Assembly (NCBI RefSeq): GCF_024172085.1
Contig: NZ_JAMZDZ010000001.1
Location: 8,122,001-8,186,000, forward strand
DNA: 64,000 nucleotides
DNA from: Hamadaea flava
GTDB taxonomy: Bacteria > Actinomycetota > Actinomycetes > Mycobacteriales > Micromonosporaceae
Direction: 5' to 3'
The notes under the pieces: model-generated
Databases searched by the model: none
What the model saw: only the letters and a program-made list of their open reading frames with translations
Told to the model about the DNA's origin: nothing
Program-made: the position numbers and the translations under genes
Shown: one piece after another, positions 50,154-64,000 of the stretch
Layout of the letters: the number at the start of each line of letters is the position of its first letter
Position numbering within the stretch: position 1 is the first letter of the stretch

Positions 50154-52199
50154 TCAGAGAGTCGCCTCGCCGGGCAGGCCGAAGAAGTCGTGCCACTTCA
50201 CCCCGCCGTTGAACGACGTGCCCGTGGACAGCCCCACCCAGACGTCGTTCGTCGACCCCTTGGTGAAGGTGATGGCGTCAGCCTTGCCATCGCCGTTGTA
50301 GTCGCCCAGGAACGGGAACTCGCCGCCGAGGCAGAAGTAGTCGCTCCACTTGAGACCGGTGCCGACGAACGACGTGCCGTTCGACAGCGCCACGTACGCG
50401 TCGGCGTTCGAGTCGCAGGTGAAGCTGACGATGTCGGCCTTGCCGTCGCCGTTGACGTCACCGACCCGGGGCTGTTCGCTGCCGACCGCGAACAGGTCGT
50501 GCCACTTGGCCGACGCGCCGAACGAGGTGCCGGTCGACAGGGCGACGTAGACGTCGGCGAGGGTGGCGCCCGGTCCCCGGGTGAAGGTGATGATGTCGTC
50601 CTTGCCGTCGCCGTTCACGTCAGCGGCGGCCGGGATCTCGCCGGTCAGGGCGAAGAAGTCGTGCCATTTGGTCGACGCGGTGAACGACGTGCCGGTCGAC
50701 AGCGCCACCCACACGTCGCCCTCGGCGTTGTGGGTGAACGAGATGACGTCGTCCTTGCCGTCGCCGTTCACATCGCCGACCGCCGGCACCTCGACACCCG
50801 GCGCGAACCAGTCGTCCCACTTCACCCCGCCGGCGAACGCGGAGCCGGTGGACAGCCCGACGTAGACGTCACCCAGTGAGCCGCCGGTGAAGGTGATCGC
50901 GTCGTCCTTGCCGTCGCCGTTGAAGTCACCGGACAGCAGCGTCTCCCCGGTCAGCCCGAAGTAGTCGTTCCACTTCACCGAGGTCCCCGCGAACGAGGTG
51001 CCGGTCGACGTGGCCACGTACGCGTCGTTGAGCGTACCCAGGGTGAAGGTGACGATGTCGTCCTTGCCGTCGCCGCTGAAGTCGGTCGACGCCCCGGCCA
51101 CCGGCTGCCCGCCGGAGTTGACCAGGGACATGTAGTAGTCCCAGTTCCAGTAGCCGCCCGGGTCGGTGTGGTCGTTGCCCGGCATCTCGTTGTGGCCCTT
51201 GATCGCGGTCCGGTTCTTCGGCAGGCCCCACTTGTCGGCCAGGTAGCGGGTCAGCGCGGCCGACGAGCGGTACATCGAGTCGGTGAACCAGCCCGGATCG
51301 TCGACGTAGCCCTCGTGCTCGATGCCGATCGCGTAGGAGTTGGCGTCGCGTACGTGGTAGGCGGTGTCCTCCTCCCGCACCATCTGGGTGATGTCACCGT
51401 CGCTCGACCGCACCACATAGTGTGCGCTGACCTGCGCCGACGGGTTCTGGAACCAGCTGATCGTGCCGGCGTAGGAGCCTTGGGTCACGTGGATGACGAT
51501 CGTGCTGATCGCCGACGACCGGCCGGGCGAGTAGTTGCTGCCGTTCGCGGCCACCCAGTGCGCCGGCGGATACTGCGGCACCGCTGCGGCGGCCAGCGCC
51601 GTCGCCTGCTGCGGCTTTCCGGTGCTCAGCTGTCCCGCCGGGGTGACGTCCGCGTACCGGCCCAGCTCCGGTCGTACGGTTCGGGGCGCTACGCGTACCG
51701 GGCCGTCGATGCCTTGGTTGAGCAGGCTGTAGACCTGGTCGGCGGCCACCCGCGCGGTGGCGTCGCTGCTCGCCCCGGCGAAGGCGGCCACCGCCGGATA
51801 CCAGGCCGCGATCCGGTGCCGGTCAGCGCGGCTCATTCCGTTTTTCATCGCGTACGCGTCGAGCACGGCGGCCGCCCCGCGCACGTTGGCGGCCGGGTCG
51901 GATTTCAGCCGCGGTACGCCGACGCCGGTGAGCGCGGCGGCCTCGGTCAGCGAATGGTTCGCCGGATTGTCGGCGAGGTGCATGACGCCGTACCCGTTGT
52001 CCTGGCTGGGTTTTCCGTCGTGATCGAGCAGCCGGGTCTCGCTGAAGCCTATCGCGGCGAGCAGATCCCGGGGCACGTCGTACGCCGCCGCGGCGCGGGC
52101 GAAGTTGATGGCCAGTTCCGGCGTCGCCGGTGCGGCGGCGGCCGGGGTGGCCGGTGCGAGGAGCAGCAGTGCTCCCGCTAGGACAGACAGCGGTCTCAC
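50154..52199 (-). CDS. Secreted N-acetylmuramoyl-L-alanine amidase with six FG-GAP/VCBS repeats
   Basis: The 681-residue protein has a signal peptide (1-22) and a lysozyme-like helical region (about 25-165; FSETRLLDHDGKPSQDNGYG). An Amidase_2 domain follows (about 220-365), with zinc-ligand candidates in TIVIHVTQ and GHNEMPGNDHTDPGG. Six ~50-residue repeats end the protein, each with a calcium loop such as GDVNGDGKDD and VALSTGTSF. It should cut the peptide from cell-wall glycan. It lies 15 bases after a gene with a near-identical C-terminal half and has an AAGGAG RBS. Confidence 0.87.
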   Translation of the reverse strand: MRPLSVLAGALLLLAPATPAAAAPATPELAINFARAAAAYDVPRDLLAAIGFSETRLLDHDGKPSQDNGYGVMHLADNPANHSLTEAAALTGVGVPRLKSDPAANVRGAAAVLDAYAMKNGMSRADRHRIAAWYPAVAAFAGASSDATARVAADQVYSLLNQGIDGPVRVAPRTVRPELGRYADVTPAGQLSTGKPQQATALAAAAVPQYPPAHWVAANGSNYSPGRSSAISTIVIHVTQGSYAGTISWFQNPSAQVSAHYVVRSSDGDITQMVREEDTAYHVRDANSYAIGIEHEGYVDDPGWFTDSMYRSSAALTRYLADKWGLPKNRTAIKGHNEMPGNDHTDPGGYWNWDYYMSLVNSGGQPVAGASTDFSGDGKDDIVTFTLGTLNDAYVATSTGTSFAGTSVKWNDYFGLTGETLLSGDFNGDGKDDAITFTGGSLGDVYVGLSTGSAFAGGVKWDDWFAPGVEVPAVGDVNGDGKDDVISFTHNAEGDVWVALSTGTSFTASTKWHDFFALTGEIPAAADVNGDGKDDIITFTRGPGATLADVYVALSTGTSFGASAKWHDLFAVGSEQPRVGDVNGDGKADIVSFTCDSNADAYVALSNGTSFVGTGLKWSDYFCLGGEFPFLGDYNGDGKADAITFTKGSTNDVWVGLSTGTSFNGGVKWHDFFGLPGEATL

Positions 52200-52214
52200 G
52201 ATTTCTCCTTGGGG

Positions 52215-53645
52215 CTAGAGAGTGGTTTCGCCGGGCAGGCCGAAGAAGTCGTGCCACTTCACTCCACCGAGGAATCCGGTGCCGGTGGAAAGGCCGACCC
52301 AGACGTCATTCGTGGAGCCTTTGGTGAAGGTGAGCGCGTCGGCCTTGCCGTCGCCGTTCACGTCGGCGAGATAGGGGAACTCGCCGCCGAGGCAGAAGTA
52401 GTCGCTCCACTTGAGACCGGTGCCGACGAACGACGTGCCGTTCGACAGCGCCACGTACGCGTCCGCATTCGAGTCACAGGTGAAGCTCACGATGTCGGCC
52501 TTGCCGTCGCCGTTGACGTCGCCGACTCTGGGCAGCTCGCCACCGACGGCGAACAGGTCGTGCCAGGTGGCCGACGCGGCGAACGACGAGCCGGTCGACA
52601 GGGCCACATAGACGTCGGCGGCGGTATCACCCGGTCCCTGGGTGAAGGTGATGACGTCCGCTTTGCCGTCGCCATTGACATCCGCGACCGCGGGGTATTC
52701 CCCGGTCGGGGCGAACCAGTCGTGCCATTTGGCGCTCGCGGCGAACGCGGCTCCGGTGGACAGGGCGACATAGACGTCGCCAAGCCCGTCGTGGGTGAAG
52801 GACACGATGTCGTCCTTGCCGTCGCCGTTCACGTCGCCGGTCGCCACCAATTCGCCGCGCGGGGCGAAGAAGTCATGCCATTTCGTGGCGCCCGCGAAGG
52901 ACGTGCCGGTGGACAACGCCACCCACACGTCGGCGTCCGAGCCGTGCGTGAAGGTGACCGCGTCGTCCTTGCCGTCGCCGTTGAAGTCGCCGGTCAGCGC
53001 CGTCTCCCCGCCGAGCGAGAAGTAGTCGTTCCACTTGACCGAGGTGCCGGCGAACGAGCTGCCGGTCGACGTCGCCACGTACGCGTCGGCCAGCGAGCCC
53101 TGCGTGAACGTGACGATGTCGTCCTTGCCGTCGCCGTCGAAGTCGGTCGGCGTGCCGGCGGTCATCTCGACCGTCCGGCGGGCGGTCGCCAGGAGCTGTC
53201 CCGCCGTGCCCGCCGCCTGGTCGTAGCGGTCAGGAAAGCCCGACCCCTGCACACATTGGGCGACCTGCCCCGCCGAGTACGCCGGATGGTTCTGGTCGCA
53301 GCCGATGGCGCGGGTGAAGAACTGGGTCGAGGCGTAGACCGGGTCCATGATCTGTTCCGGCGTGCCCCACCCGTAGTCGTAGCGCTGCTGGAACACGCCG
53401 AGCGAGGTCTTGTCCCCGCAGGGCAGGTTGTTCATGTGGGACTCGACCCAGCCCGCCTCGAACCCGGCGAGCAGCACTTTCTCGGAGACGTTCAGGTGCC
53501 GGGCGACCCGGTGCACGACGACGAGCACGGAGAGGTCCGCGGTGGACGGGATGGCGGGGCAGGCCGCCGCGGCCCGGCCTGGGTCGAGGACGGCGAGACC
53601 GCCGGCCGTGCTGAGGGCGCACAGTATCGCGAGGAGACGTCGCAT
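52215..53645 (-). CDS. Secreted lysozyme-like/transglycosylase protein with six FG-GAP/VCBS repeats
   Basis: The 476-residue protein has a signal peptide (1-27) and a goose-lysozyme or transglycosylase-like head (about 30-165; VSEKVLLAGFEAGWVESHMNN in part, with Glu18-type ESH, and LGVFQQRYDYGWGTPEQI). Six calcium-loop repeats closely match those of the downstream amidase; both end KWHDFFGLPGExTL. The pair looks like one duplicated binding tail joined to two different wall-cutting heads. The region from 53646 to the LacI gene (53835) shows no gene. Confidence 0.85.
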   Translation of the reverse strand: MRRLLAILCALSTAGGLAVLDPGRAAAACPAIPSTADLSVLVVVHRVARHLNVSEKVLLAGFEAGWVESHMNNLPCGDKTSLGVFQQRYDYGWGTPEQIMDPVYASTQFFTRAIGCDQNHPAYSAGQVAQCVQGSGFPDRYDQAAGTAGQLLATARRTVEMTAGTPTDFDGDGKDDIVTFTQGSLADAYVATSTGSSFAGTSVKWNDYFSLGGETALTGDFNGDGKDDAVTFTHGSDADVWVALSTGTSFAGATKWHDFFAPRGELVATGDVNGDGKDDIVSFTHDGLGDVYVALSTGAAFAASAKWHDWFAPTGEYPAVADVNGDGKADVITFTQGPGDTAADVYVALSTGSSFAASATWHDLFAVGGELPRVGDVNGDGKADIVSFTCDSNADAYVALSNGTSFVGTGLKWSDYFCLGGEFPYLADVNGDGKADALTFTKGSTNDVWVGLSTGTGFLGGVKWHDFFGLPGETTL

Positions 53646-53834: not shown

Positions 53835-54833
53835 TCACGCAGGCCGGACCGAGCTTTCCCGGATCTTGAGTTCGGTCTGCAGGGTGACCGTCGACGCCGG
53901 GCGGCCGGGCTCGGCGATCCGCTCGGCCAACAGCAGGGCCGCGGTGCGGCCGAGTTCGTACGTGGGCTGCACGACCGTGGTCAGCGACGGGCGTACGAGA
54001 TGGGCCCACGGGATGTCGTCGAAGCCGACCACGCCGAACCGGCCCGGGACCGAGATCCCGCGATCGACCAGGCATTCCATCGCGCCGACGGTCATCAGGT
54101 TGTTGGCGGCGAAGACGGCGTCGGGCTCGGCACCGGAGTCCAGCAGCGACGCCATCGCGGCGTAGCCGCCCTCCTCGCGGTAGTCCGCGTGGCGGATGAG
54201 CTGGTCGTCGGCCGGGCGCTTGTGGCGCCTGACGGCGTTGGTGTATCCGCGGAGCCGCTGCTGGGCGGTCGGCAGTTTGCGCGGCCCGGTGATGCAGGCG
54301 ATCCGCTGGTACCCGGCGGCGACCAGGTGCGACGTCGCGACGTCCGCGCCGTGCTCGTTGTCGGCCAGCACGGTGTCCACTGTGGCTCCCCGGATCTGCC
54401 GGTCGATCGCCACCACCGGGGTCCCGGACTCGACGAGCCGCGTGATGGTGGCGAGCTTGCCGGTCGAGGAGATGATCACGCCCGCCATCTGCTCGGCGAG
54501 CGCGGCGCTGACGTAGCGGTCCTCCTTGCCGGGGTCCTCGTCGCTGTTGCACAGCACCACGGAGTACCCGGCGGCCTGCGCGACGTCCTCGACGCCGCGG
54601 ACCAGCGAGGTGAAGAACGGGTTCCCGATGTCGGAGATGATCACCGCCCAGATGCTGGTCTGCTGGCGGCGCAGGTTGCGGGCGACCGCGTTGGGGCGGT
54701 AGTCGAGGTCGCGCATGGCCTGATGGACCCGGGCGGCGAGCGCGGCGTCCACCGTCGTGCGCCCGTTGACGACGCGCGAGACGGTCGCGGCGGAGACGCC
54801 GGCGTGCCGGGCGACGTCGTAGATCGTGGCCAT
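53835..54833 (-). CDS. LacI-family regulator of the D-arabinan locus
   Basis: The 332-residue protein has the LacI helix-turn-helix (TIYDVARHAGVSAATVSRVVNG), hinge (RPNAVARNLRRQ) and a periplasmic-binding-type sugar domain (VIISDIGNPFFTSLVRGVED, VFAANNLMTVGAM, GVVGFDDIPWAHLVRPSLTT, in part). It is divergent from the isomerase/kinase/GH/ABC operon. Three copies of GGAAATCGATTTCC-like operators lie in the 304 bases between the starts, one 39 bases from its own start, so it probably represses itself and the operon until a sugar effector binds. Confidence 0.9.
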   Translation of the reverse strand: MATIYDVARHAGVSAATVSRVVNGRTTVDAALAARVHQAMRDLDYRPNAVARNLRRQQTSIWAVIISDIGNPFFTSLVRGVEDVAQAAGYSVVLCNSDEDPGKEDRYVSAALAEQMAGVIISSTGKLATITRLVESGTPVVAIDRQIRGATVDTVLADNEHGADVATSHLVAAGYQRIACITGPRKLPTAQQRLRGYTNAVRRHKRPADDQLIRHADYREEGGYAAMASLLDSGAEPDAVFAANNLMTVGAMECLVDRGISVPGRFGVVGFDDIPWAHLVRPSLTTVVQPTYELGRTAALLLAERIAEPGRPASTVTLQTELKIRESSVRPA

Positions 54834-54871
54834 GAATCCCCGCCTTCCAGAAGCGCGTTGAGCCTAGCAGG

Positions 54872-54885
54872 AGAAATCGATCCCT
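54872..54885. promoter_or_regulatory. LacI operator site 1
   Basis: AGAAATCGATCCCT matches 10 of 14 bases of GGAAATCGATTTCC. It lies 39 bases upstream of the lacI start, placed for autorepression. Confidence 0.6.
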
Positions 54886-54974
54886 CGGACCGCACACCTG
54901 GCGGCTCGCCCTAAGCGGCCCCCGATGTGGTCGGGGCGGTCACGGAGATTTCCCAGCCTGGCGAGGCTGTTTCC

Positions 54975-54988
54975 GGAAATCGATCTCG
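54975..54988. promoter_or_regulatory. LacI operator site 2
   Basis: GGAAATCGATCTCG matches 12 of 14 bases of the consensus palindrome. It is 105 bases from site 3 and 103 from site 1, about ten helical turns each, which would suit DNA looping. Confidence 0.65.
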
Positions 54989-55048
54989 CCGTCGCTGACC
55001 AGGTAATACGGCTCTGACATCTGGTGCTAGCAGGCTGGAAACGAACTG

Positions 55049-55093
55049 TTGACAACCCTCGTTGCCGAGCCTACTCTCTGGAAATCGATTTCC
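55049..55093 (+). promoter_or_regulatory. Operon promoter with perfect LacI operator (site 3)
   Basis: TTGACA (55049-55054), 17 bases and TACTCT (55072-55077) form a strong promoter. The perfect palindrome GGAAATCGATTTCC (55080-55093) begins 3 bases after the -10, covering the transcription start. The SIS gene begins 45 bases downstream. The rest of 54834-55137 holds no gene. Confidence 0.85.
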
Positions 55094-55137
55094 CGAACCT
55101 GCTCGATCGGGACCCTCAGCACTTCGTTAGGAGCACC

Positions 55138-55785
55138 GTGACGACGCAATCGGCGGACGGGCCGGCTCGCCTCGATCCTGGCATCGGCGACCCCGGCATC
55201 ACTGCGGCCCGCCAGGCGCTGCGGCACGAGGCCGACGCCGTCGCCGCGCTCATCGGCCGGCTGGGGCCGCAGTTCACCGCGGTCGTCGACGCGATCCTCG
55301 AATGCCGCGGCCGTGTGGTGGTCTCCGGTCTGGGCAAGTCCGGCATCATCGGCCGGAAGATCGCGGCGACGCTGGCCAGCACCGGAACCCCGACGGCGTT
55401 CGTCCACGCGGCGGAGGCGCTGCACGGCGACTCCGGCATGGTGGCGCCTGGCGACCTGGTGATCGCCCTGTCGGCGTCCGGTGAGACCGCCGAGGTCTGC
55501 GACTTCGCCGAGATGGTGACCGCGCGGGGCATCCCGGTGGTCGCGCTGACCGGCCGACCCGACTCCACCCTCGCCACGCTGTCCCAGCACGTGCTGGACG
55601 TGGCGGTCGAACGAGAGGCCGATCCGTTGAACGTCGCGCCGACCGCCTCCACGACGGCGACCCTCGCGATGGGCGACGCGCTCGCCTCGGCGCTGATGGT
55701 CCGCCGGGGGTTCACCTCGCAGGACTTCGCCGGGTTCCACCCCGGCGGCTCGCTGGGCCGGCGGCTGACCGGGGGTGCCCGATGA
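55138..55785 (+). CDS. SIS-domain sugar-phosphate isomerase (KpsF/GutQ/KdsD type, no CBS domains)
   Basis: The 215-residue protein matches the SIS core of arabinose-5-phosphate isomerases: SGLGKSG (63-69), VHAAEALHGDSGMV and SASGET (112-117), ending DFAGFHPGGSLGRRL. KdsD/GutQ proteins interconvert D-ribulose 5-phosphate and D-arabinose 5-phosphate; they normally carry two C-terminal CBS domains, absent here. This organism type does not make KDO, so a catabolic role, D-arabinose 5-phosphate to ribulose 5-phosphate, fits the operon. The GTG follows TAGGAG and the perfect LacI operator. Confidence 0.87.
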   Translation: MTTQSADGPARLDPGIGDPGITAARQALRHEADAVAALIGRLGPQFTAVVDAILECRGRVVVSGLGKSGIIGRKIAATLASTGTPTAFVHAAEALHGDSGMVAPGDLVIALSASGETAEVCDFAEMVTARGIPVVALTGRPDSTLATLSQHVLDVAVEREADPLNVAPTASTTATLAMGDALASALMVRRGFTSQDFAGFHPGGSLGRRLTGGAR

Positions 55786-56813
55786 TCCCGCAGCAGACCG
55801 GCGGCGACGACGGCTTCGACGTGTGCGTCCTGGGCAGCTTCATGAAGGACCTGGTCACGCAGGCGCCGCGGCGGCCGCGGCCGGGCGAGACGATCCGGGG
55901 CCGCGCCTTCGACGAGTACCTCGGCGGCAAGGGCTTCAACCAGGCGATCGCGGCGCGCAGAGCCGGAGCGCGTACGGCGATGATCGGGCGCGTCGGCGAC
56001 GACCGGCACGGCGCGGAATTCCTCGCGATGCTGGCCGAGGAGGGCGTCGACGCGGCGTACGTGCGGCGCGACTCGGGCTGGGGGACCGGGGTCGGTCTGC
56101 CCGTCGTGGAGCCGGACGGCAGCAACTCCATCATCATCGTGCCCCGCGCGAACGACGCAGTCACCGCCGACGACGTCCTGGCCGCGGCCCCGGTCATCCA
56201 GCGCAGCCGCGTACTGCTGGTGCAGTTGGAGGTGCCGCTGCCCGCCGTGCTGACCGCGTTGCACCTCGCCCGGTCGGCGAACGTGCTGACCGTGCTCAAC
56301 CCGGCGCCGTCGGCGCCGCTGCCGGAGGACATCAGCGCGCTGGTCGACGTGGTGGTCCCGAACGAGGTCGAGGCCGAAAGCCTCACCGGCCTGCCCTGTC
56401 ACGGCGACGCCGTCCTCGGCACCGCGCCGACGCTGCGGCGGCGGCTGGCCCGCCGGGGCGCGATCATCACCCTCGGCGGACGCGGTGTCGTGGTGGTCGA
56501 CCGGCCCGGCGACGACGAGGTGCCGCCCGAAGCCGTCGACGCGTACGCGGGCTGGCGGACCAGCGTCCTGAACCCGTTGGCGGTCGACACGATCGACACC
56601 GTCGGGGCCGGCGACGCCTTCTGCGGCGCGCTCGCCGCTCGCATCGCAGCCGGGGACGGTCTGCTGAGCGCGGCCGAGTACGCCAACGCGGCCGGCGCGC
56701 TGGCGACCACCCGACGGGGAACCGCACCGGCCATGCCCCGCGCCGACGAGATCGGCGCGCTGCTCACCCGTACGACAGTCTCCGGCGCGCCCGTCGGAGA
56801 GCACGCACTGTAA
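55782..56813 (+). CDS. PfkB-family sugar kinase, candidate D-arabinose kinase
   Basis: The 343-residue protein has the PfkB signatures YLGGKGFNQAIAARRAGA (near residue 46) and DTVGAGDAF (272-280), with the catalytic base Asp278 and the anion hole GAGD. PfkB kinases phosphorylate a sugar hydroxyl with ATP; ribokinase-like members act on pentoses at O5. Coupled by ATGA to the A5P-isomerase-like gene, it is the obvious source of arabinose 5-phosphate, though ribose or fructose cannot be ruled out from sequence. Confidence 0.87.
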   Translation: MIPQQTGGDDGFDVCVLGSFMKDLVTQAPRRPRPGETIRGRAFDEYLGGKGFNQAIAARRAGARTAMIGRVGDDRHGAEFLAMLAEEGVDAAYVRRDSGWGTGVGLPVVEPDGSNSIIIVPRANDAVTADDVLAAAPVIQRSRVLLVQLEVPLPAVLTALHLARSANVLTVLNPAPSAPLPEDISALVDVVVPNEVEAESLTGLPCHGDAVLGTAPTLRRRLARRGAIITLGGRGVVVVDRPGDDEVPPEAVDAYAGWRTSVLNPLAVDTIDTVGAGDAFCGALAARIAAGDGLLSAAEYANAAGALATTRRGTAPAMPRADEIGALLTRTTVSGAPVGEHAL

Positions 56814-56824
56814 CCCCGTTGGAG

Positions 56825-56959
56825 GTGGTGCTCGATGAAGACCCGGACGCACCGCGCCGCAGCGGCGGGCGTACGCAGGCCGAGGTGTTCGCCGGGATTT
56901 GGACGGACAACGGGGACATGTGGTTGCAGCATGACGACTTCGCGGTGGTCAAAGCCTGA
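56825..56959 (+). CDS. Possible 44-residue acidic peptide in the operon gap
   Basis: A frame from GTG 56825 to a stop at 56959 gives a small protein with LDEDPDAPRRSGG and FAGIWTDNGDMWLQHDDF. Third codon positions are nearly all G or C, as in true genes here, and it lies in an otherwise unexplained 234-base gap. Start choice is uncertain (56825, 56828 or TTG 56819), and the RBS GGAGG overlaps the start. An alternative ATG frame at 56834 has poor codon bias. From 56960 to the GH172 start I see only its RBS. Confidence 0.35.
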   Translation: MVLDEDPDAPRRSGGRTQAEVFAGIWTDNGDMWLQHDDFAVVKA

Positions 56960-57047
56960 CACGCCCAGCCAGGAGATCAACGCCTGAGACATCATCGGAT
57001 CGGTTCGGCGGCAGCGTGGCCGCTGTGACCGCGAGAGAGGGGACAGC

Positions 57048-58121
57048 GTGAACTACGGTTCATACGGCAGCAGCCTTCGGGACCTGCCCCGGTTGCGACC
57101 GCATCGCCGCCGGCGGGAGTCGAGCTGGGACCGGAGCGGCGGCAACGACGACCGGGTCACCGTCCACCCCGGCGAGACCGTGACACTCGCCGACATCCAG
57201 GGCGCGGGTTCGATCAACCACATCTGGATGACCGTCGCCCCGCGCGACGCGGCCACGCCCGCCACCGCCGACCGTGATTTCCTGCGCAAACTGGTCCTGC
57301 GGGTCTACTGGGACGACGCCGAGCACCCGAGCGTGCTCGTGCCGCTCGGCGACTTCTTCGGGGTCGGCCACGGCCGCACCGCGAACTTCGTCTCCGCGCC
57401 GCTCCAGATGAGCCCGCAGGACGGCAAGGCCTTCAACTGCTTCTTCCACATGCCGTTCGCCACCCGCGCCCGGTTCGAGCTGACCAGCGAGTGCGAGTCG
57501 GAAGTCCTGTGGTTCTACTACTACATCGACTACGACCAATTCGATGAGCTGGGCGCGGACCTCGGCCGGTTCCACGCCCAGTGGCGGCGCGAGTGCCCCA
57601 CCGACGGGATCGAGCAGGGCGACCTGTCGAACTCCGACTGGCTGTTCTCCGGCAGCAACCTCGACGGGGCGGGCAACTACACGATCCTCGACGCCGAGGG
57701 CCGCGGCCACTACGTGGGCTGCGTGCTCAACGTGACGAACCTGCGCCAGACCGCCGACTGGAACTGGTACGGCGAAGGCGACGACATGATCTTCATCGAC
57801 GGCGAGGCGTTCCCGCCGAGCCTGCACGGCACCGGGACCGAGGACTACTTCAACACCGCCTGGTGCCCGAGCGAGTCCTACCACGCGCCGTACCACGGGA
57901 TCACCCTGCCCGGCGGCGAGAACTGGAGCGGGCAGATCTCGCTCTACCGGTTCCACATCGAGGATCCGGTGCCGTTCCGCAGCTCCATCCGGGTGACCAT
58001 CGAGCACGGTCACGCCAACCGGCGCAACGACGACCTGTCCTCGGTCGCGTACTGGTATCAGGAGCTGCCCCACAAGCCGTTCACTCTGCCGCCCGTCGCC
58101 CAGCGACTGCCCCGGCTGTGA
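57048..58121 (+). CDS. GH172 (DUF2961) exo-alpha-furanosidase, candidate alpha-D-arabinofuranosidase
   Basis: The 357-residue protein is a DUF2961/GH172 member, with jelly-roll segments (GAGSINHIWMTVAP, LVPLGDFFGVGHG, WFYYYIDYDQ) and the catalytic region. Likely catalytic Glu243 (GEGDDMIFIDGE) and Glu265 (HGTGTEDYF) occupy the positions of the two glutamates of Bifidobacterium alpha-fructofuranosidase, allowing one inserted residue. The family releases D-fructofuranose or D-arabinofuranose. No signal peptide is seen, so it acts in the cytoplasm. The GTG has a GAGAGAGG RBS. Confidence 0.9.
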   Translation: MNYGSYGSSLRDLPRLRPHRRRRESSWDRSGGNDDRVTVHPGETVTLADIQGAGSINHIWMTVAPRDAATPATADRDFLRKLVLRVYWDDAEHPSVLVPLGDFFGVGHGRTANFVSAPLQMSPQDGKAFNCFFHMPFATRARFELTSECESEVLWFYYYIDYDQFDELGADLGRFHAQWRRECPTDGIEQGDLSNSDWLFSGSNLDGAGNYTILDAEGRGHYVGCVLNVTNLRQTADWNWYGEGDDMIFIDGEAFPPSLHGTGTEDYFNTAWCPSESYHAPYHGITLPGGENWSGQISLYRFHIEDPVPFRSSIRVTIEHGHANRRNDDLSSVAYWYQELPHKPFTLPPVAQRLPRL

Positions 58122-59245
58122 ATCACCGACCCCGTCTGCCCGCTCTCGTCGCGGTGGTGCTGCTCGCCGCCGGATGCACGAGCCCGTCAGGAGAGACCGT
58201 GACCGTGCTGGACCCGCGCACCGACAAGCCCTTCGTGCTGACGGGCGTCGGCGGCCTGACCGAGATCGGCCAGGTCACCGGCGTGCCGGGCGGCACCGAC
58301 AAGTACGCCGTGCACGGCACCGACCTGGGCTCGATGTTCAGCGCCGGCGGCACCACGTACTTCGTCTTCGGCGACACCTTCGGCGAGCGGACGGACGGGC
58401 AGACCGGGGCGGGCGGCAGCTTCTGGCGATCGAACGTCCTCGGCTACACCACGGATCGCGACCCGTCCGACGGCGTACGCCTCACCGGCATGGTCACCGA
58501 CGAGATCGGGCTCGCCAAGGAACTGCTGGGCAGCAAGAAGGTCGACGGGGACGAGATGACCGTCATCCCGACGTATGGGTTTGCCGTCGGGAAGACCTTC
58601 TACCTCTATTACATGTCGGTGCGGCACTGGGGCGACCCCGGCCGCTGGGACGCCAACCACGCCGGGCTGGCCCGCTCCACCGACGGCGGGCAGAACTGGA
58701 CCCGGCTGGACGCGGTGACCTGGCCAGGTGACTCCGGATTCATCCAGGTCAGCGTCACCCATGCGCTCGAGGACGGGGTGGACCAGCTCTACTTCTGGGC
58801 CATCCCGGCCGGCCGATTCGGCGGCGTACGCCTCATGCGCGTACCCGCCGCGCAGGTCGAGCAACTGTCGGCGTACCGGTACTACGCCGGCGCCGGCTCC
58901 ACCGGCCCGATCTGGGCCGCCGACCGGGACCAGGCGGTCCTCGTCGTCGACGACACCGTCGGCGAGCTGTCGGTGGCGTACAACTCGTATCTCGACCGGT
59001 GGATCATGATGTACCTCCGCGAGGGCGACGGCGTCGTCCTGCGGGAGGGCGTCACCCCCTGGGGCCCCTGGAGCGAGCCGCGCACCGTTGTGGACGCGGC
59101 CGGTCACCCGGGCCTCTACGCACCCTTCCAATACCCGGTGACCAGCGAAGCGACCGATGACGGTGGCCGCCGGATCTACTTCAACCTCTCCCTCTGGGGA
59201 CCGTACAACGTGTTCCTCTACTCAATTGATCTTGAGAAATCCTAG
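58118..59245 (+). CDS. DUF4185/GH183 lipoprotein, candidate endo-D-arabinanase
   Basis: The 375-residue protein begins at a GTG that overlaps the GH172 stop. Its lipobox LAAGC puts Cys20 at the lipid anchor, so it sits on the cell surface. The body is a DUF4185 propeller: HGTDLGSMFSAGGTTYFVFGDTFGE (in part), DEMTVIPTYG, STDGGQNWTR, RWIMMYL. Asp69 (HGTDLG) and Asp86 (FGDTF) are candidate catalytic carboxylates. Enzymes of this family, now GH183, cleave D-arabinan of mycobacterial arabinogalactan and lipoarabinomannan in endo mode. Confidence 0.88.
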   Translation: MNHRPRLPALVAVVLLAAGCTSPSGETVTVLDPRTDKPFVLTGVGGLTEIGQVTGVPGGTDKYAVHGTDLGSMFSAGGTTYFVFGDTFGERTDGQTGAGGSFWRSNVLGYTTDRDPSDGVRLTGMVTDEIGLAKELLGSKKVDGDEMTVIPTYGFAVGKTFYLYYMSVRHWGDPGRWDANHAGLARSTDGGQNWTRLDAVTWPGDSGFIQVSVTHALEDGVDQLYFWAIPAGRFGGVRLMRVPAAQVEQLSAYRYYAGAGSTGPIWAADRDQAVLVVDDTVGELSVAYNSYLDRWIMMYLREGDGVVLREGVTPWGPWSEPRTVVDAAGHPGLYAPFQYPVTSEATDDGGRRIYFNLSLWGPYNVFLYSIDLEKS

Positions 59246-59253
59246 GAGTTGCG

Positions 59254-60570
59254 ATGAAGCGCAGAGCTCTGCTCAGCGGGCTGGCCGGCGCGGCCGCGCT
59301 CGCGGCCGCCGGGTGCGGCAGTAAGGACAGCGGTTCCGGTGACAAGGCCGAGGTGACCATCTGGCAGCAGAAGTTCACCGACCAGGAGGACGCCTGGTAC
59401 AAGAAGGCGGTCGCCGCGTACAACGCCTCGCAGAACAAGGTCAAGGTCGTGCACCAGATCGTGCCGGCCGACGCCTGGGACCAGAAGATGAAGGCCGCGC
59501 AGGCGGCGGGCAAGGCGCCCGACGTGTTCACCCTGAACTACAACAAGGTGCAGGGATTCGCCCGGACCAGCCAGATCCAGGCCCTCGACGGGGTCATCGC
59601 CGCCGACAAGTGGTCGGGCCTGCAGGAGTCGGTCGTCGGGTCGATCACCTACAAGGGCAAGAAGTACGGCTACCCGATGCTCGTCGAGCCGTCGGCCGTC
59701 CTCTACTACCGCAAGGACCTGTTCGCCAAGGCCGGCCTCGACCCCGAGAAGCCGCCGACGAGCTGGGCCGAGCTGGTCGACTTCGGCAAGAAGCTGACGA
59801 CCAAGGACGTCTCCGGCTTCTCCACCGCCGGCAACCAGATCGACATGGGCTGGTCGACGTGGGGCCTGCAGTGGAACGCCGCCGGGCACCTGCCGATCAG
59901 CGACGACTGGTCGCAGCCGCGGGCCAACGACCCGGCGTACAAGCCGCTCCTGCAGGCCTACCAGGATCTCTACAAGCAGGGCATCATGCCGAAGCAGCCG
60001 CTCGCGCCGTACGCCGACGCCACCCCGTTCGGCCAGGGCAAGGCCGCCATGATGGCCTGCGGTTCCTGGGCGGCCAGCGTGCTGCTGTCGGACTTCCCGA
60101 AGGTCGTCGGGAACGTGGCCGCCGCGCCGATGCCCTCGTTCGACGGCGACGTCACCAAGCCGACCGCCACCCTCGGCGGCTGGACCTGGGTGATCGACGG
60201 CAAGTCGACCAAGGCCCAGGCGGCGGCCGAGTTCATCGCGTACGTGCTCGCCGGCGACCCCGCCCTCCTGGTCGACTACTTCAAGACGACCAAGTTCTCG
60301 AAGTACTCTCCCCGAACCGCGGTCGCCGACACGATCAGCAGCGACCCGGCCGCGAAGGAGAACCCGTGGGCGCAGACGATTCAGGACAAGGTGGTCAAGT
60401 ACGCCAAGCCGGAGCCGACCTACGACTGGTCGATCAGCCTGGCGTTCGGCAAGGCGATCGAGAAGGCCCTCCAGGGCAAGGACATCGACACGGCCCTGAA
60501 GGAGGCCGACGCCGAGATCAAGGACATCATCGCGAAGAACAACCTGGCCGGACAGGGCACCACGTCATGA
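59254..60570 (+). CDS. ABC sugar-binding lipoprotein (CUT1 type)
   Basis: The 438-residue protein has a lipobox AAAGC (Cys21) and a type-B substrate-binding fold (VTIWQQKFTDQEDAWYKKAV, PDVFTLNYNK, VEPSAVLYYRKDLFAKAG, MACGSWAASVLLSDFP, in part). CUT1 proteins capture mono- or oligosaccharides outside the cell and hand them to the permeases encoded next. The position between GH183 and cytoplasmic-type GH172/GH116 genes suggests D-arabino-oligosaccharides as ligand. It ends in ATGA with the first permease. The ATPase is absent and may be shared (MsiK-like). Confidence 0.92.
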   Translation: MKRRALLSGLAGAAALAAAGCGSKDSGSGDKAEVTIWQQKFTDQEDAWYKKAVAAYNASQNKVKVVHQIVPADAWDQKMKAAQAAGKAPDVFTLNYNKVQGFARTSQIQALDGVIAADKWSGLQESVVGSITYKGKKYGYPMLVEPSAVLYYRKDLFAKAGLDPEKPPTSWAELVDFGKKLTTKDVSGFSTAGNQIDMGWSTWGLQWNAAGHLPISDDWSQPRANDPAYKPLLQAYQDLYKQGIMPKQPLAPYADATPFGQGKAAMMACGSWAASVLLSDFPKVVGNVAAAPMPSFDGDVTKPTATLGGWTWVIDGKSTKAQAAAEFIAYVLAGDPALLVDYFKTTKFSKYSPRTAVADTISSDPAAKENPWAQTIQDKVVKYAKPEPTYDWSISLAFGKAIEKALQGKDIDTALKEADAEIKDIIAKNNLAGQGTTS

Positions 60571-61520
60571 CGAGCGCGGCCGGTGCTGCGACCGCGGTCG
60601 CAGCACCGGGCACCCGCGGCGCGTCGGGGTCGACGGCGCGGCGACGGCGGCACGGCGACACCAAGGTCGCGTACCTCATGCTCACGCCGCTGGTCGTCCT
60701 GCTGGCGATCTTCGTCATCTGGCCGTTGCTGCACGCCGTCTACATCAGCTTCTTCACCTGGAGCTTCTACGCGCCATCGGAGTTCGTGGGGCTCGACAAC
60801 TACGTGAACGTGCTGACGGACCAGGCGTTCCTGTCCTCGGTGCTGCGCGGACTCGGGTTCGCCGCGATGGTGGTCCCGGCGCAGCTGCTGATCGCGTTCG
60901 CGTTCGCCAACCTCGTGAAGTCGTTCAGCGGGCGCATGGCCGGCGTACTCAAGGTCACGATCTATGTCCCGGCCGTGATCTCCGAGGTCATCGCGTCCAT
61001 CATCTTCACGATCATCTACGCGTACCGTGGGGGCATCCTGAACTGGGCCCTGGGCCTGGTGGGGCGCGACGACACCGCGTGGCTGGGGGAGACCGGGACC
61101 GCGCTGCCCGCGATCGCGGTGCCGGCGATCTGGATCGGGATGGGCATCGCCTCGCTGATCATGCTGGCCGGCCTGCTGGACATCCCGGAGGCTTACTACG
61201 AGGTGGCCTCGCTGGACGGCGCGGGCTGGTGGTCCAAGATGGTCCACATCACGCTGCCGCTGATGAAGAACATCTTCCTGTATCTGCTGGTCACCGGGTT
61301 CGCCGGCTCGCTGCAGTTCCTCGTCGTGCCGCTCGTGATGACCAACGGCGGCCCGCTGGAGTCGACCACGCTGCCGAACCTGTTCATCTTCCGGCACTTC
61401 ACCAACGACCTCTACTCCGGCTATCCGATCGCGGCCGCCCTGCTGCTGTTCCTCGTCCTGGGCTCGGTGTCGGCGATCATCTTCCGGCTGGTGCGATCCG
61501 AGAAGGCGGTGGACGGCTGA
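60567..61520 (+). CDS. ABC sugar transporter permease, inner subunit 1 (MalF-like)
   Basis: The 317-residue protein has six membrane helices (first LMLTPLVVLLAIFVIWPLL) and the permease EAA loop EAYYEVASLDGAGWWSKMVHITLP, which contacts the ATPase. A basic N-terminus (ARRRRHGD) faces the cytoplasm. It overlaps the binding-protein gene by four bases and the next permease gene by one. Confidence 0.92.
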   Translation: MTSAAGAATAVAAPGTRGASGSTARRRRHGDTKVAYLMLTPLVVLLAIFVIWPLLHAVYISFFTWSFYAPSEFVGLDNYVNVLTDQAFLSSVLRGLGFAAMVVPAQLLIAFAFANLVKSFSGRMAGVLKVTIYVPAVISEVIASIIFTIIYAYRGGILNWALGLVGRDDTAWLGETGTALPAIAVPAIWIGMGIASLIMLAGLLDIPEAYYEVASLDGAGWWSKMVHITLPLMKNIFLYLLVTGFAGSLQFLVVPLVMTNGGPLESTTLPNLFIFRHFTNDLYSGYPIAAALLLFLVLGSVSAIIFRLVRSEKAVDG

Positions 61521-62335
61521 TGCGGTTCCTCGTGATGGCGGGCAAACTCGGGCTGGCCGGGCTGTTCCTGCTCAGCGCCCTGTTCCCGCTGGCCTGGATG
61601 CTGATCGCGGGATTCAAGAGCAAGACCGAGGTCGTGCAGACCCCGTTCCAGTTCTTCCCCGAGGTCTGGCGCTGGGAGAACTACACCCAGATCCTCGGGG
61701 ACCCCGCGTTCCTGCGCTCGATCGGCGTGACCTTCGTCGGCGCGCTGCTGTTCGCCGCGCTGAGCCTGGTGGTCAACTCCCTCGGGGCGTACGCCTTCGC
61801 CCGGCTGGACTTCGCGTTCAAGCGCACCCTGTGGGTCGTGGTCATCACGACGATGTTCATCCCGGGCATCGCCATCATGCTGACCTCGTTCATCGTGGTG
61901 ACCCAGCTCGGGATGCTCGACACGATGGCGGTCCTGGTCATTCCGGGCGCGGCGTCCGGGCTCCAGGTGTTCTTCCTGCGCCAGTACTACCTGGGTGTGC
62001 CGGTCGCGCTGGAGGAGGCCGCGCTGATCGACGGCGCCGGGCGGTGGCGGATCTTCCTGCACATCTTCACGCCGATCTCGAAGGGCGCGCTGGTCGTCGT
62101 CGGGGTCACCTCGTTCCTGGCGTTCTGGAACGCGTACATCTGGCCGGTGCTCACCATCACCGACCCGAACCTGTTCCAGATCCAGCAGTACCTGGCGACC
62201 TTCCGGTCCGACCGGTCGTCCGAGCTCGGCCTGCTCATGGCCGGGTCGACGCTGGCGGCGTTGCCCGTGATCCTGCTCTTCCTGGCCTTCCAGAAGCAGA
62301 TCATCGGCGGCATCCGGATCTCGGGGATGAAGTGA
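61520..62335 (+). CDS. ABC sugar transporter permease, inner subunit 2 (MalG-like)
   Basis: The 271-residue protein has six membrane helices and the EAA loop LEEAALIDGAGRWRIFLHIFTP. The C-terminus QKQIIGGIRISGMK is typical of MalG-like subunits. It pairs with the preceding permease. The stop overlaps the GH116 start (GTGA). No ATPase gene is visible in the operon within this window. Confidence 0.92.
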   Translation: MRFLVMAGKLGLAGLFLLSALFPLAWMLIAGFKSKTEVVQTPFQFFPEVWRWENYTQILGDPAFLRSIGVTFVGALLFAALSLVVNSLGAYAFARLDFAFKRTLWVVVITTMFIPGIAIMLTSFIVVTQLGMLDTMAVLVIPGAASGLQVFFLRQYYLGVPVALEEAALIDGAGRWRIFLHIFTPISKGALVVVGVTSFLAFWNAYIWPVLTITDPNLFQIQQYLATFRSDRSSELGLLMAGSTLAALPVILLFLAFQKQIIGGIRISGMK

Positions 62336-64000
62336 GGGCCCGTCCGATCCCTCACGAGGAGGGGCGCTTCGTCGCGATGCCGCTGGGTGGCATCGGCACC
62401 GGCGGCTTCGCGATCGGCGCCGACGGCGGGCTGCGGCAATGGCAGCTGCAGAACGTCGGCAACCATCGTGGCGAGCTGCCGGGGACGTTCTTCGCGTTGC
62501 GGGTCAGCCAGATCGAGCCGCCGCTCGACCGGACCTACGTGCTGCAAGCGCCGCCCGGCCCGGCGGACGCCGCCCGGACCCCGCTCGTCAACGACGATCT
62601 CGTGCCGGGCTGGCAGCGGGATCTGCTCGGGGCGTACCCAGGTGTGACGTCGACGACGTTCCGCGGGCTGTATCCGGTCGCCGAGATCGATTATCACGGG
62701 TTGCCGGTGGACGTCCGGCTGACGGCGGTCAACCCGCTGATTCCGCTCGACGTCGAACGGTCGTCGCTGCCCGTGGCGATGTTCACCTTCACCGTCACGA
62801 ATCCGTCTGATGTGGATGCTCATGTCTGGCTGGGTGCGGCGATGCAGAATCCGGTCGGGCACGACGGGACCACTCCGATCGACGGCGTGACCGGGCGTGG
62901 GTACGGCGGCAACACCAATCGCGTACGGCGGGAGAACGGCTGGACCTCCCTGGTCCTGGAGAACCATGCGATCGACCCGCTCGCGCCGGGCGCGGGCCAG
63001 GCCGTCCTGGCGATCGACTCGCCGTCTGCCGCGACGCTGCCGCAGTGGCAGCATCCCGCCGAGTTCCTCGGCTTCCTCGACGCCCGCGCGTTCTACGTCG
63101 ACTCCTCGGTGCTCGCCCCACACACCGCCGAGTACCAGCCCAGCGGTCCCGCGCCGACCTGGGGGCCGAGCGGCCCCGGCCGCACGTGGAACGGCGGGGT
63201 CGCGGCGGTGCTCGACCTCAAGCCCGGGGAGACCGGCACGATCCGCGTCCTGCTGGCCTGGCATTTTCCCAACCGGTACGCGAATTTCGTGCAGTTCGGC
63301 CCGCCGAATCCTCAGTGGGGGCCGACCCGGTTCTGGCTCGGCAACGCCTATGCGCAGCGGTACGCCGACGCCCAGGCGGTCGCCGCCGAGGTGGTGTCGC
63401 AGTGGGATTCGCTGCTGGCCGACACCCGGGCGTGGACGTCGGTGCTCACCGAGAGCAGCCTCGACGGCGACGCGGTGGAGCACCTGGCCGCCCAAGCCGC
63501 GATCCTGCGCAGCCCGTCCTGTTTCGTCACCGCCGACGGCGCGTTCTTCGGTTTCGAAGGCGTGCTCGGGGCGTCGACCGTGATGTGGACCGGCGACGTC
63601 GGCGGCTCATGCCCGCTCAACTGCACCCACGTCTGGAACTACGCCCAGGCCGTTGCGAAGCTGTTCCCGCAGCTCGAACGCAGCATGCGGCAGACCGAGT
63701 ACGACGTCATGCAGGCGCCGGCGGGTTACCTGCCGCATCGCGTGATCTCGCCTCCCTACCTGCCGCAGCTGTGGGACAAACCCATCGGCGGCCCGGTCGA
63801 GCCGGCCCTCGACGGGATGCTCGGCAGCGTCCTGAAGACCTACCGGGAGGTACGCAACGGCGCCGGCCTCGACTGGCTCCGACGGTACTGGCCCTCGGTG
63901 CAACGGTTGCTGGACTACGTGCGCGATCGCTGGGATCCGACGGCGTCCGGGGTGCTGCGCGGCGTACAGCCGTCCACGCACGACATCGATCTGTGCGGGG
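62332..64000 (+). CDS. GH116 glycosidase, candidate beta-D-arabinofuranosidase (3' end outside window)
   Basis: The frame is open from the GTG at 62332 to the window end, giving 556 residues without a stop. The N-terminal part matches the GH116 beta-sandwich (AMPLGGIGTGGFAIGADG, LPVAMFTFTVTNPS, LLAWHFPNRYAN). The alpha/alpha barrel begins with FFGFEG (Glu409), GGSCPLNCTHVWNYAQAVAKLFP (in part) and ERSMRQTEY. The window ends in HDIDLCG, near the acid/base region. It has no signal peptide. GH116 includes beta-glucosidases and a beta-D-arabinofuranosidase that trims mycobacterial arabinan ends. Confidence 0.88.
   Translation, partial: MRARPIPHEEGRFVAMPLGGIGTGGFAIGADGGLRQWQLQNVGNHRGELPGTFFALRVSQIEPPLDRTYVLQAPPGPADAARTPLVNDDLVPGWQRDLLGAYPGVTSTTFRGLYPVAEIDYHGLPVDVRLTAVNPLIPLDVERSSLPVAMFTFTVTNPSDVDAHVWLGAAMQNPVGHDGTTPIDGVTGRGYGGNTNRVRRENGWTSLVLENHAIDPLAPGAGQAVLAIDSPSAATLPQWQHPAEFLGFLDARAFYVDSSVLAPHTAEYQPSGPAPTWGPSGPGRTWNGGVAAVLDLKPGETGTIRVLLAWHFPNRYANFVQFGPPNPQWGPTRFWLGNAYAQRYADAQAVAAEVVSQWDSLLADTRAWTSVLTESSLDGDAVEHLAAQAAILRSPSCFVTADGAFFGFEGVLGASTVMWTGDVGGSCPLNCTHVWNYAQAVAKLFPQLERSMRQTEYDVMQAPAGYLPHRVISPPYLPQLWDKPIGGPVEPALDGMLGSVLKTYREVRNGAGLDWLRRYWPSVQRLLDYVRDRWDPTASGVLRGVQPSTHDIDLCG

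Follow-up and report, generated by a model that had tools for sequence, protein, structure and literature searches.

A probable LacI-regulated D-arabinan utilisation operon of Hamadaea flava with a predicted kinase-first route for D-arabinose

Which glycan is served by an actinobacterial operon that combines three glycoside hydrolases (GHs), an ABC importer, a sugar kinase and a sugar isomerase, and by which route is the released sugar consumed? The question is raised by one end of the 64,000-nucleotide stretch analysed here (the window), which covers positions 8122001-8186000 of the single-contig 8.86-Mb genome of Hamadaea flava. In Microbacterium arabinogalactanolyticum, a polysaccharide utilisation locus (PUL) with GH183, GH172 and GH116 enzymes, an importer, an isomerase and a kinase is induced by D-arabinose and by mycobacterial cell-wall extract (Shimokawa 2023, PMC10509167). 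For the Hamadaea cluster, D-arabinan is very likely the substrate class, and the complete explanation as a LacI-regulated D-arabinan utilisation operon is probable. The features of the operon, in window coordinates, are as follows.

53835-54833, minus strand: LacI-family regulator, divergent (Pfam LacI 63.8 bits, Peripla_BP_3 123 bits; kept beside the operon in L025, a locus from a Hamadaea metagenome-assembled genome, MAG)
55138-55785, plus strand: SIS isomerase of KpsF/GutQ/KdsD type, predicted D-arabinose-5-phosphate isomerase (TIGR00393; GTG start inferred)
55782-56813, plus strand: PfkB ribokinase-like kinase, predicted D-arabinose 5-kinase (PfkB 184 bits)
56814-57047, plus strand: deletion scar of an EndoMA1-type gene for GH183 with a carbohydrate-binding module (alignment with the intact L025:3079-4605)
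57048-58121, plus strand: GH172 (DUF2961), predicted intracellular exo-alpha-D-arabinofuranosidase of DgGH172c type (Pfam 298 bits)
58118-59245, plus strand: GH183 (DUF4185), predicted surface endo-D-arabinanase (Pfam 298 bits; start inferred, GTGA overlap)
59254-60570, plus strand: ABC sugar-binding lipoprotein (SBP_bac_1/8, 120 and 107 bits)
60567-61520, plus strand: ABC permease 1 (BPD_transp_1 48.9 bits)
61520-62335, plus strand: ABC permease 2 (reading frame and homology; L025 counterpart 542 bits)
62332-64000 and on to 64797, plus strand: GH116 of subfamily-4 type, predicted exo-beta-D-arabinofuranosidase (Pfam 163 and 158 bits; ExoMA2 381 bits)

The genes, order and orientation given in the initial annotation are all borne out by reading frames and Pfam, or by homology in the case of permease 2: LacI on the minus strand is followed on the plus strand by SIS, PfkB, GH172, GH183, the sugar-binding protein, permease 1, permease 2 and GH116. 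All components of a Gram-positive D-arabinan PUL (GH183, GH172, GH116, ABC importer, isomerase and kinase) stand in one cluster. The Pfam scores are 64 (LacI), 108 (SIS), 184 (PfkB), 298 (DUF2961) and 298 bits (DUF4185), 120 bits for SBP_bac_1, 49 bits for BPD_transp_1 in permease 1, and 163 and 158 bits for the GH116 N-terminal and catalytic domains. The transporter genes include no ATPase gene within the operon, and GH116 is truncated by the window end, its open reading frame closing at window-equivalent 64797. The tight packing that had been described holds at five junctions, with start and stop codons checked at 4-bp overlaps for SIS/PfkB, GH172/GH183, sugar-binding protein/permease 1 and permease 2/GH116 and at a 1-bp overlap between the permeases, and also between GH183 and the sugar-binding protein, which are spaced by 8 bp; it does not hold between PfkB and GH172, where the gap of 234 bp is the deletion scar.

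The GH183 protein scores 298 bits against DUF4185 (curated cutoff 39.5), and its best match in the PDB is EndoMA1 (8hhv, 186 bits). All eight of the listed EndoMA1 active-site residues (D33, D51, W138, P141, R198, E243, L292 and Y293) are identical at aligned positions, including the nucleophile D33 and the acid/base D51, with residue roles as given by Shimokawa 2023 (PMC10509167). A lipobox, LLAAGC, is seen by eye at the N-terminus, and the protein is predicted to be a surface endo-D-arabinanase.

The GH116 protein matches ExoMA2 with 381 bits, compared with about 101 for the best beta-glucosidases, and in an alignment of 95 rows it keeps E431, H446, R483 and D557 of ExoMA2; the beta-glucosidase TxGH116 has Asp452 and His507 where ExoMA2 has H446 and R483. 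Relative to ExoMA2, an insert of nine residues follows the nucleophile, and 74 of the 95 rows have a long loop there. A pairwise phmmer alignment places Thr at E431; the reading as an inactive enzyme was nevertheless dropped, as the 95-row alignment places the Glu of GFEG at this position. Archaeal relatives of GH116 (L072, L075, L082, L084, L085, L087, L089, L091 and L092, from Thermoprotei and Lokiarchaeota MAGs) also carry the catalytic and specificity residues of ExoMA2, and no GH183 is seen in the DNA examined for them.

Counts of loci in this study refer to the best 80 of 591 GH116 relatives, and so describe the nearest relatives only. Sixty-seven of these loci are at least 12 kb long (13 shorter ones were left out), comprising 23 with GH183 and 44 without, and presence or absence of a gene applies to the DNA examined per locus. 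Loci L009-L024 stand outside these counts, and of these L022 and L023 seem to come from the genomes that are also the source of L025 and L026. The nearest GH116 records are from Hamadaea MAGs (87 and 89% identity). A match at E <= 1e-80 is present in four of four genus genomes examined, in one at 39% identity only, and a match at E <= 1e-40 in eight of 298 genomes of the order.

The GH172 protein has PDB matches 4kq7, 7v1v, 8ah3 and 8ic8, with scores of 281 bits to 4kq7 (BACUNI_00161), 274 to alphaFFase1, 262 to DgGH172c and 114 to ExoMA1. The catalytic E233 and E254 of DgGH172c and its D255 are all identical, although the D225A mutant named for DgGH172c could not be mapped, position 225 of chain 8ah3 being Cys. 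No signal peptide is visible by eye. DgGH172c is a proven alpha-D-arabinofuranosidase that acts on pNP-alpha-D-Araf, arabinogalactan and lipoarabinomannan (PMC10115798). The position that bears on specificity is Asn253 in ExoMA1 and Gly299 in alphaFFase1 (PMC10509167).

Several of these results weigh against D-arabinan as the substrate. The GH172 is nearer to alphaFFase1, a fructofuranosidase, than to ExoMA1, and at the Asn253/Gly299 position it has Cys, as do DgGH172c and 4kq7. The four GH116 residues are common to all 95 rows, among them loci of archaea and Chloroflexi in which GH183 is absent, and so do not single out D-arabinan; although the residues are present, the comparison is a weak one, and their conservation was dropped as proof of the substrate because it does not discriminate. 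On the GH172 scores, the substrate might instead be some other furanoside (for example an alpha-D-fructofuranoside or mixed glycan), GH172 then being a fructofuranosidase as alphaFFase1 is, but the chance of this appears very small: the GH183 of the same operon retains all of the endo-D-arabinanase residues, DgGH172c is about as close to the GH172 as alphaFFase1 is, the Cys is that of DgGH172c and not the Gly that permits fructose, and it is hard to see what a KpsF-type isomerase would do with fructose. Among the 23 loci with both GH183 and GH116, the Cys type was found in eight and the Asn type in 15 (L033 has both), Gly was found in none, and no GH172 was seen in L057. In the comparison with characterised enzymes that had been proposed, GH183 thus goes with EndoMA1 and GH116 with ExoMA2 as opposed to beta-glucosidases, and GH172 scores higher with 4kq7, alphaFFase1 and DgGH172c than with ExoMA1; the assignment to D-arabinan itself is supported by the GH183 residues, the GH116 scores and the similarity of GH172 to DgGH172c.

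The operon had been called complete, but one endo-arabinanase gene has been deleted from it. In L025, an intact GH183 gene with the C-terminal domain of EndoMA1 lies between PfkB and GH172, and its product matches EndoMA1 over the full length (554 bits over 473 residues). The flanks are shared with the window, in which about 1.38 kb is missing from the PfkB-GH172 gap. What is left comprises a start remnant from 56835 and a C-terminal remnant to 56959 (the last 32 codons), out of frame with one another, and the junction carries a short similar sequence. On the evidence of this alignment, the gap is read as the scar of a deleted EndoMA1-type endo-arabinanase gene. A gene of this type also precedes GH172 in Thermoactinospora (L027) and Nonomuraea (L028-L030), which makes loss in the lineage of the window the simpler reading. 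A small gene of 44 codons considered for this gap was rejected, being the tail of the deleted GH183.

A second strong GH183 is encoded elsewhere in the genome, at 2306865-2307806 (L005; 226 bits, and 111 bits to EndoMA1), separated from the operon by about 5.9 Mb of the contig and with a twin-arginine-like signal seen by eye; two further genome matches are weak (43 and 39 bits). In other D-arabinan loci, a divergent DUF4185-like family (L032:17531-18925, L033:1242-3125 and L048:7639-8814) may be a new GH183-like branch; the L032 member, the only one scored, reaches 39.8 bits against the cutoff of 39.5. Another protein family lies beside three D-arabinan clusters (L056:859-1974, L073:1010-2311 and L048:16961-17905), and its L073 member, the one of the three that was searched, has no Pfam match.

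The whole-cell sugars of Micromonosporaceae include arabinose, and the arabinan attacked could in principle be the cell's own. Mycobacterial GH183 enzymes have been suggested to modify or degrade the walls of their own producers (PMC10115798), and the operon could similarly recycle or remodel its host's wall arabinan instead of feeding on other bacteria. This is improbable, however, as an importer and catabolic genes suit feeding, and the one-contig genome has no match to the Emb family or to AftA, with Corynebacterium glutamicum controls positive in both searches, a result that speaks against reuse of the host's wall material. Feeding is accordingly held with good confidence on this genomic evidence.

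The fate of the sugar would depend on the SIS and PfkB proteins. The SIS protein scores 208.9 bits to TIGR00393 (KpsF/GutQ), above the cutoff of 203.7, and 158 bits to Escherichia coli KdsD (2xhz), but falls short of the KdsD and GutQ equivalog cutoffs (505 and 481). It resembles KdsD and GutQ in its SIS domain and catalytic positions, with K59, H88, D90, E111 and E152 of KdsD conserved; the catalytic Lys, His, Glu and Glu positions are K71, H100, E123 and E164 in a query numbered from 55126 (four codons before the inferred GTG). A start at 55126 was rejected, the codon there being GTT, and the GTG at 55138 is given instead; the four additional codons affect none of the results. Unlike the E. 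coli enzymes, the protein has no CBS domains (SIS domains alone were found by Pfam), and the genome has no match to Kdo8P synthase. The protein is predicted to be a D-arabinose-5-phosphate isomerase. KpsF-type SIS enzymes act on phosphosugars, including phosphorylated pentoses, which requires the kinase step to precede the isomerase step. The sugar would then probably pass from D-arabinose through D-arabinose 5-phosphate to D-ribulose 5-phosphate, with the PfkB protein, a ribokinase-family kinase not filed as RbsK, as the predicted D-arabinose 5-kinase.

An isomerase-first or other order would make D-ribulose or D-ribose the substrate of PfkB and give the SIS protein an accessory or regulatory function as an isomerase. 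Such an order is unlikely, though less so than the two alternatives considered above. It would fit the fucose-isomerase relatives of the Microbacterium, Agromyces and Nonomuraea loci and of Dysgonomonas gadei, and also an RbsD-type protein, encoded just past the window, that matches D-ribose pyranase. The H. flava genome, however, has no match to the fucose isomerase C-domain (positive controls were detected), and nothing was found with a Nonomuraea relative of fucose isomerase as query, in a search run without a positive control. Moreover, the kinases of the window, of L065 and of the six loci with both SIS and PfkB named below share the motifs SFMxD and GGKG[FV]NQ, compared with SLNMD and GGKGANQ in the single ribokinase compared.

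The distribution of the two genes also favours a kinase-first route. SIS and PfkB occur together in six of the 23 loci with GH183 and GH116 (Hamadaea, Pseudactinotalea, Catelliglobosispora, Actinotalea and two Cellulomonas), while FucI and/or FGGY genes occur in 12 (four Microbacterium, Agromyces, two Nonomuraea, Thermoactinospora, Thermomicrobiales and three actinomycete MAGs); no locus has both modules and five show neither, an exclusion with a hypergeometric probability of 0.0046 if kinship is ignored. The partner proteins are 56-97% (SIS) and 49-92% (PfkB) identical to those of the window. Fucose_iso_C was weak on the two isomerases tested with Pfam (38 bits in L058 and 24 in L057, cutoff 29.3), and FGGY was clear. 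Across the phylum, a KpsF-type SIS at E <= 1e-20 was found in 17 of 396 genomes, that of the window included; PfkB lies beside it in the window and in none of the 16 others (about 1.5 kb searched per side, less at contig ends), the best of which is 48% identical to the window protein.

Other observations count against this route or the pairing on which it is based. The kinase resembles ribokinase, but its 263.9 bits to the ribokinase model TIGR02152 are below the equivalog cutoff of 299.65. Three of the 12 FucI/FGGY loci are partial, with weak partial edge hits in L027, FucI only in L057 and FGGY only in L077. L120, one of the 16 other phylum loci, has an SIS gene beside an FGGY-kinase hit, and L065, from an Arcanobacterium MAG, has the kinase type and GH116 with no SIS or GH183 in the 17 kb examined, so that the link between the two genes is not a strict one. 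The Rbl D-ribulose locus of Citrobacter rodentium is likewise a catabolic pentose locus with a KpsF-like isomerase, but unlike the Hamadaea operon it has an FGGY kinase acting on D-ribulose, and its KpsF-like gene is dispensable for growth on D-ribulose (PMC12307932). The SIS and PfkB pair, as judged from these genomes, travels mainly with D-arabinan loci. L065 also has LacI and an importer, and its kinase motifs are SFMxD and GGKGFNQ.

How the operon is controlled is suggested by the region between LacI and SIS, which contains three copies of one palindrome.

54873-54884, no strand: operator-like GAAATCGATCCC near the start of LacI, differing from GAAATCGATTTC at two positions
54976-54987, no strand: operator GAAATCGATCTC, one mismatch to GAAATCGATTTC
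55081-55092, no strand: operator GAAATCGATTTC, perfect palindrome

At the 55081 operator lies the 14-mer GGAAATCGATTTCC, which occurs once in the genome. With up to one mismatch, GAAATCGATTTC has 67 sites in 22 of the 23 loci with GH183 and GH116, compared with a mean of 0.19 and a maximum of 3 for 64 shuffled palindromes and 0.1 for Markov shuffles. It is highly probable that the palindrome is a real regulatory site, and somewhat less so that it is bound by this LacI. A specific link to D-arabinan is opposed by L051, which has GH183 but no operator site (the single miss among the 23), and by the 24 operators in 19 of the 44 GH116 loci without GH183, including Kribbella, Jiangella and Actinocrispum (shuffled palindromes give a mean of 2.25 and a maximum of 5); the regulon may be wider than D-arabinan, and the regulator family may have other roles besides it. 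Eight Kribbella loci (L042-L045, L047, L059, L070 and L101) have GH116 without GH183 in the DNA examined, and all eight carry an exact AGAAATCGATTTCC.

Elsewhere in the genome, exact GNAATCGATTNC is found five times in all: once in this operon, once at an esterase gene, twice ahead of the second GH183 and once at another place. Sites with up to one mismatch to the operator number at least 79, compared with 13 for a reversed control, and most of these are presumably unrelated. The places at 7022008, 2048481 and 8780871, considered as further candidates on the basis of their open frames, are not counted as regulon members. Two of the genes with operator-type sites lie on the minus strand just past the window end.

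L002:13104-13523, minus strand: RbsD-type pyranase (NF008761 117 bits, cutoff 93)
L002:13609-14601 (genome 8187608-8188600), minus strand: esterase PF00756, with operator GAAATCGATTTC just upstream

The RbsD gene has GAATTCGATTTC upstream, as it also does in L025. The esterase has a twin-arginine-like signal by eye, and its PDB neighbours are feruloyl/CE1 esterases (68-55 bits) and, more weakly, corynebacterial PS1 and Cmt1 as well as Ag85; that it is a deacylase of wall arabinan is a guess. The pyranase, the secreted esterase and the distant second GH183 likely belong to the regulon, as their upstream sites suggest. Between GH116 and RbsD (L002:12820-13010), an inverted unit GATCGTCGGC...GCCGATC in tandem copies is seen by eye.

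The proposed mechanism combines these elements. Exogenous D-arabinan would be cut by the surface or secreted GH183 enzymes (the operon lipoprotein and the twin-arginine-like protein encoded at 2.31 Mb), and the oligosaccharides would be taken up by the ABC importer. D-arabinose would be released inside the cell by GH172 at alpha ends and by GH116 at beta ends, and the RbsD-like pyranase may hold the sugar in the form needed by the kinase. PfkB would convert D-arabinose to D-arabinose 5-phosphate, which the KpsF/GutQ-type isomerase would convert to D-ribulose 5-phosphate, bringing it into the pentose phosphate pathway. LacI would repress the set at GNAATCGATTNC operators until an arabinose-type inducer is present. 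The gene content, the residues, the conserved palindromes with their placement and the scar are read directly from the DNA, while each enzyme activity, the kinase-first order, the role of the pyranase, the binding of LacI to the palindrome and induction are what we infer from them.

The operon had been presented as lying outside the known Microbacterium example, with import, phosphorylation and isomerisation as its addition. Neither part is supported: PMC10509167 reports related clusters in Cellulomonas sp. 73-145 and other Actinobacteria, and the Microbacterium PUL already has an importer, an isomerase and a kinase. That PUL is also similar in its extracellular GH183, its intracellular GH172 and GH116 and its importer of SBP_bac_8 type; it differs in having GH172 of ExoMA1 type where Hamadaea has the DgGH172c type, and in its sugar module, SIS and PfkB in Hamadaea and "a putative isomerase and kinase" in the main text of PMC10509167. 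Cellulomonas sp. 73-145 (L056) shares SIS and PfkB, GH183, the sugar-binding protein, permeases, GH116 (54% best-segment identity) and an operator, GGAAATCGATTCCC, but has an ExoMA1-type GH172 and a different gene order. PUL42 of D. gadei (PMC10115798) has a GH172 of DgGH172c type and GH183 endo-arabinanases, although it is a Bacteroidota PUL.

A system of this kind has therefore already been published, and what looks new, leaving Fig. 9 of PMC10509167 aside, is the route in which the kinase acts first, along with the operator code. An arabinose-5-phosphate route and a D-arabinose LacI operator are not described in the titles and abstract openings of the literature searched, nor is GAAATCGATTTC printed in any paper of that literature, subscription journals being outside its scope. 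The fuller proposal, of an undescribed kinase-first D-arabinose route in several actinobacterial families together with a shared LacI code GNAATCGATTNC and a secreted esterase that may strip acyl (mycolyl or succinyl) groups off wall arabinan ahead of its digestion, is evenly balanced between right and wrong. Apart from the operon, window positions 50154-53645 (minus strand) encode two adjacent secreted-looking proteins with many FG-GAP-like repeats (DVNGDGKDD) and differing N-terminal parts, as seen by eye.

Studies of the mycobacterial wall call for enzymes that can dismantle its arabinogalactan and lipoarabinomannan. If the reading given here is true, bacteria that feed on D-arabinan would have a second natural route for D-arabinose, and arabinose-5-phosphate isomerase would have a Kdo-free role in a Gram-positive. 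The operator would expose members of the regulon outside the operon, namely the second GH183, the pyranase and the secreted esterase, and the GNAATCGATTNC code would help to locate D-arabinofuranoside regulons in further genomes, so that a cheap test for the operator could uncover D-arabinan enzymes in other actinomycetes.

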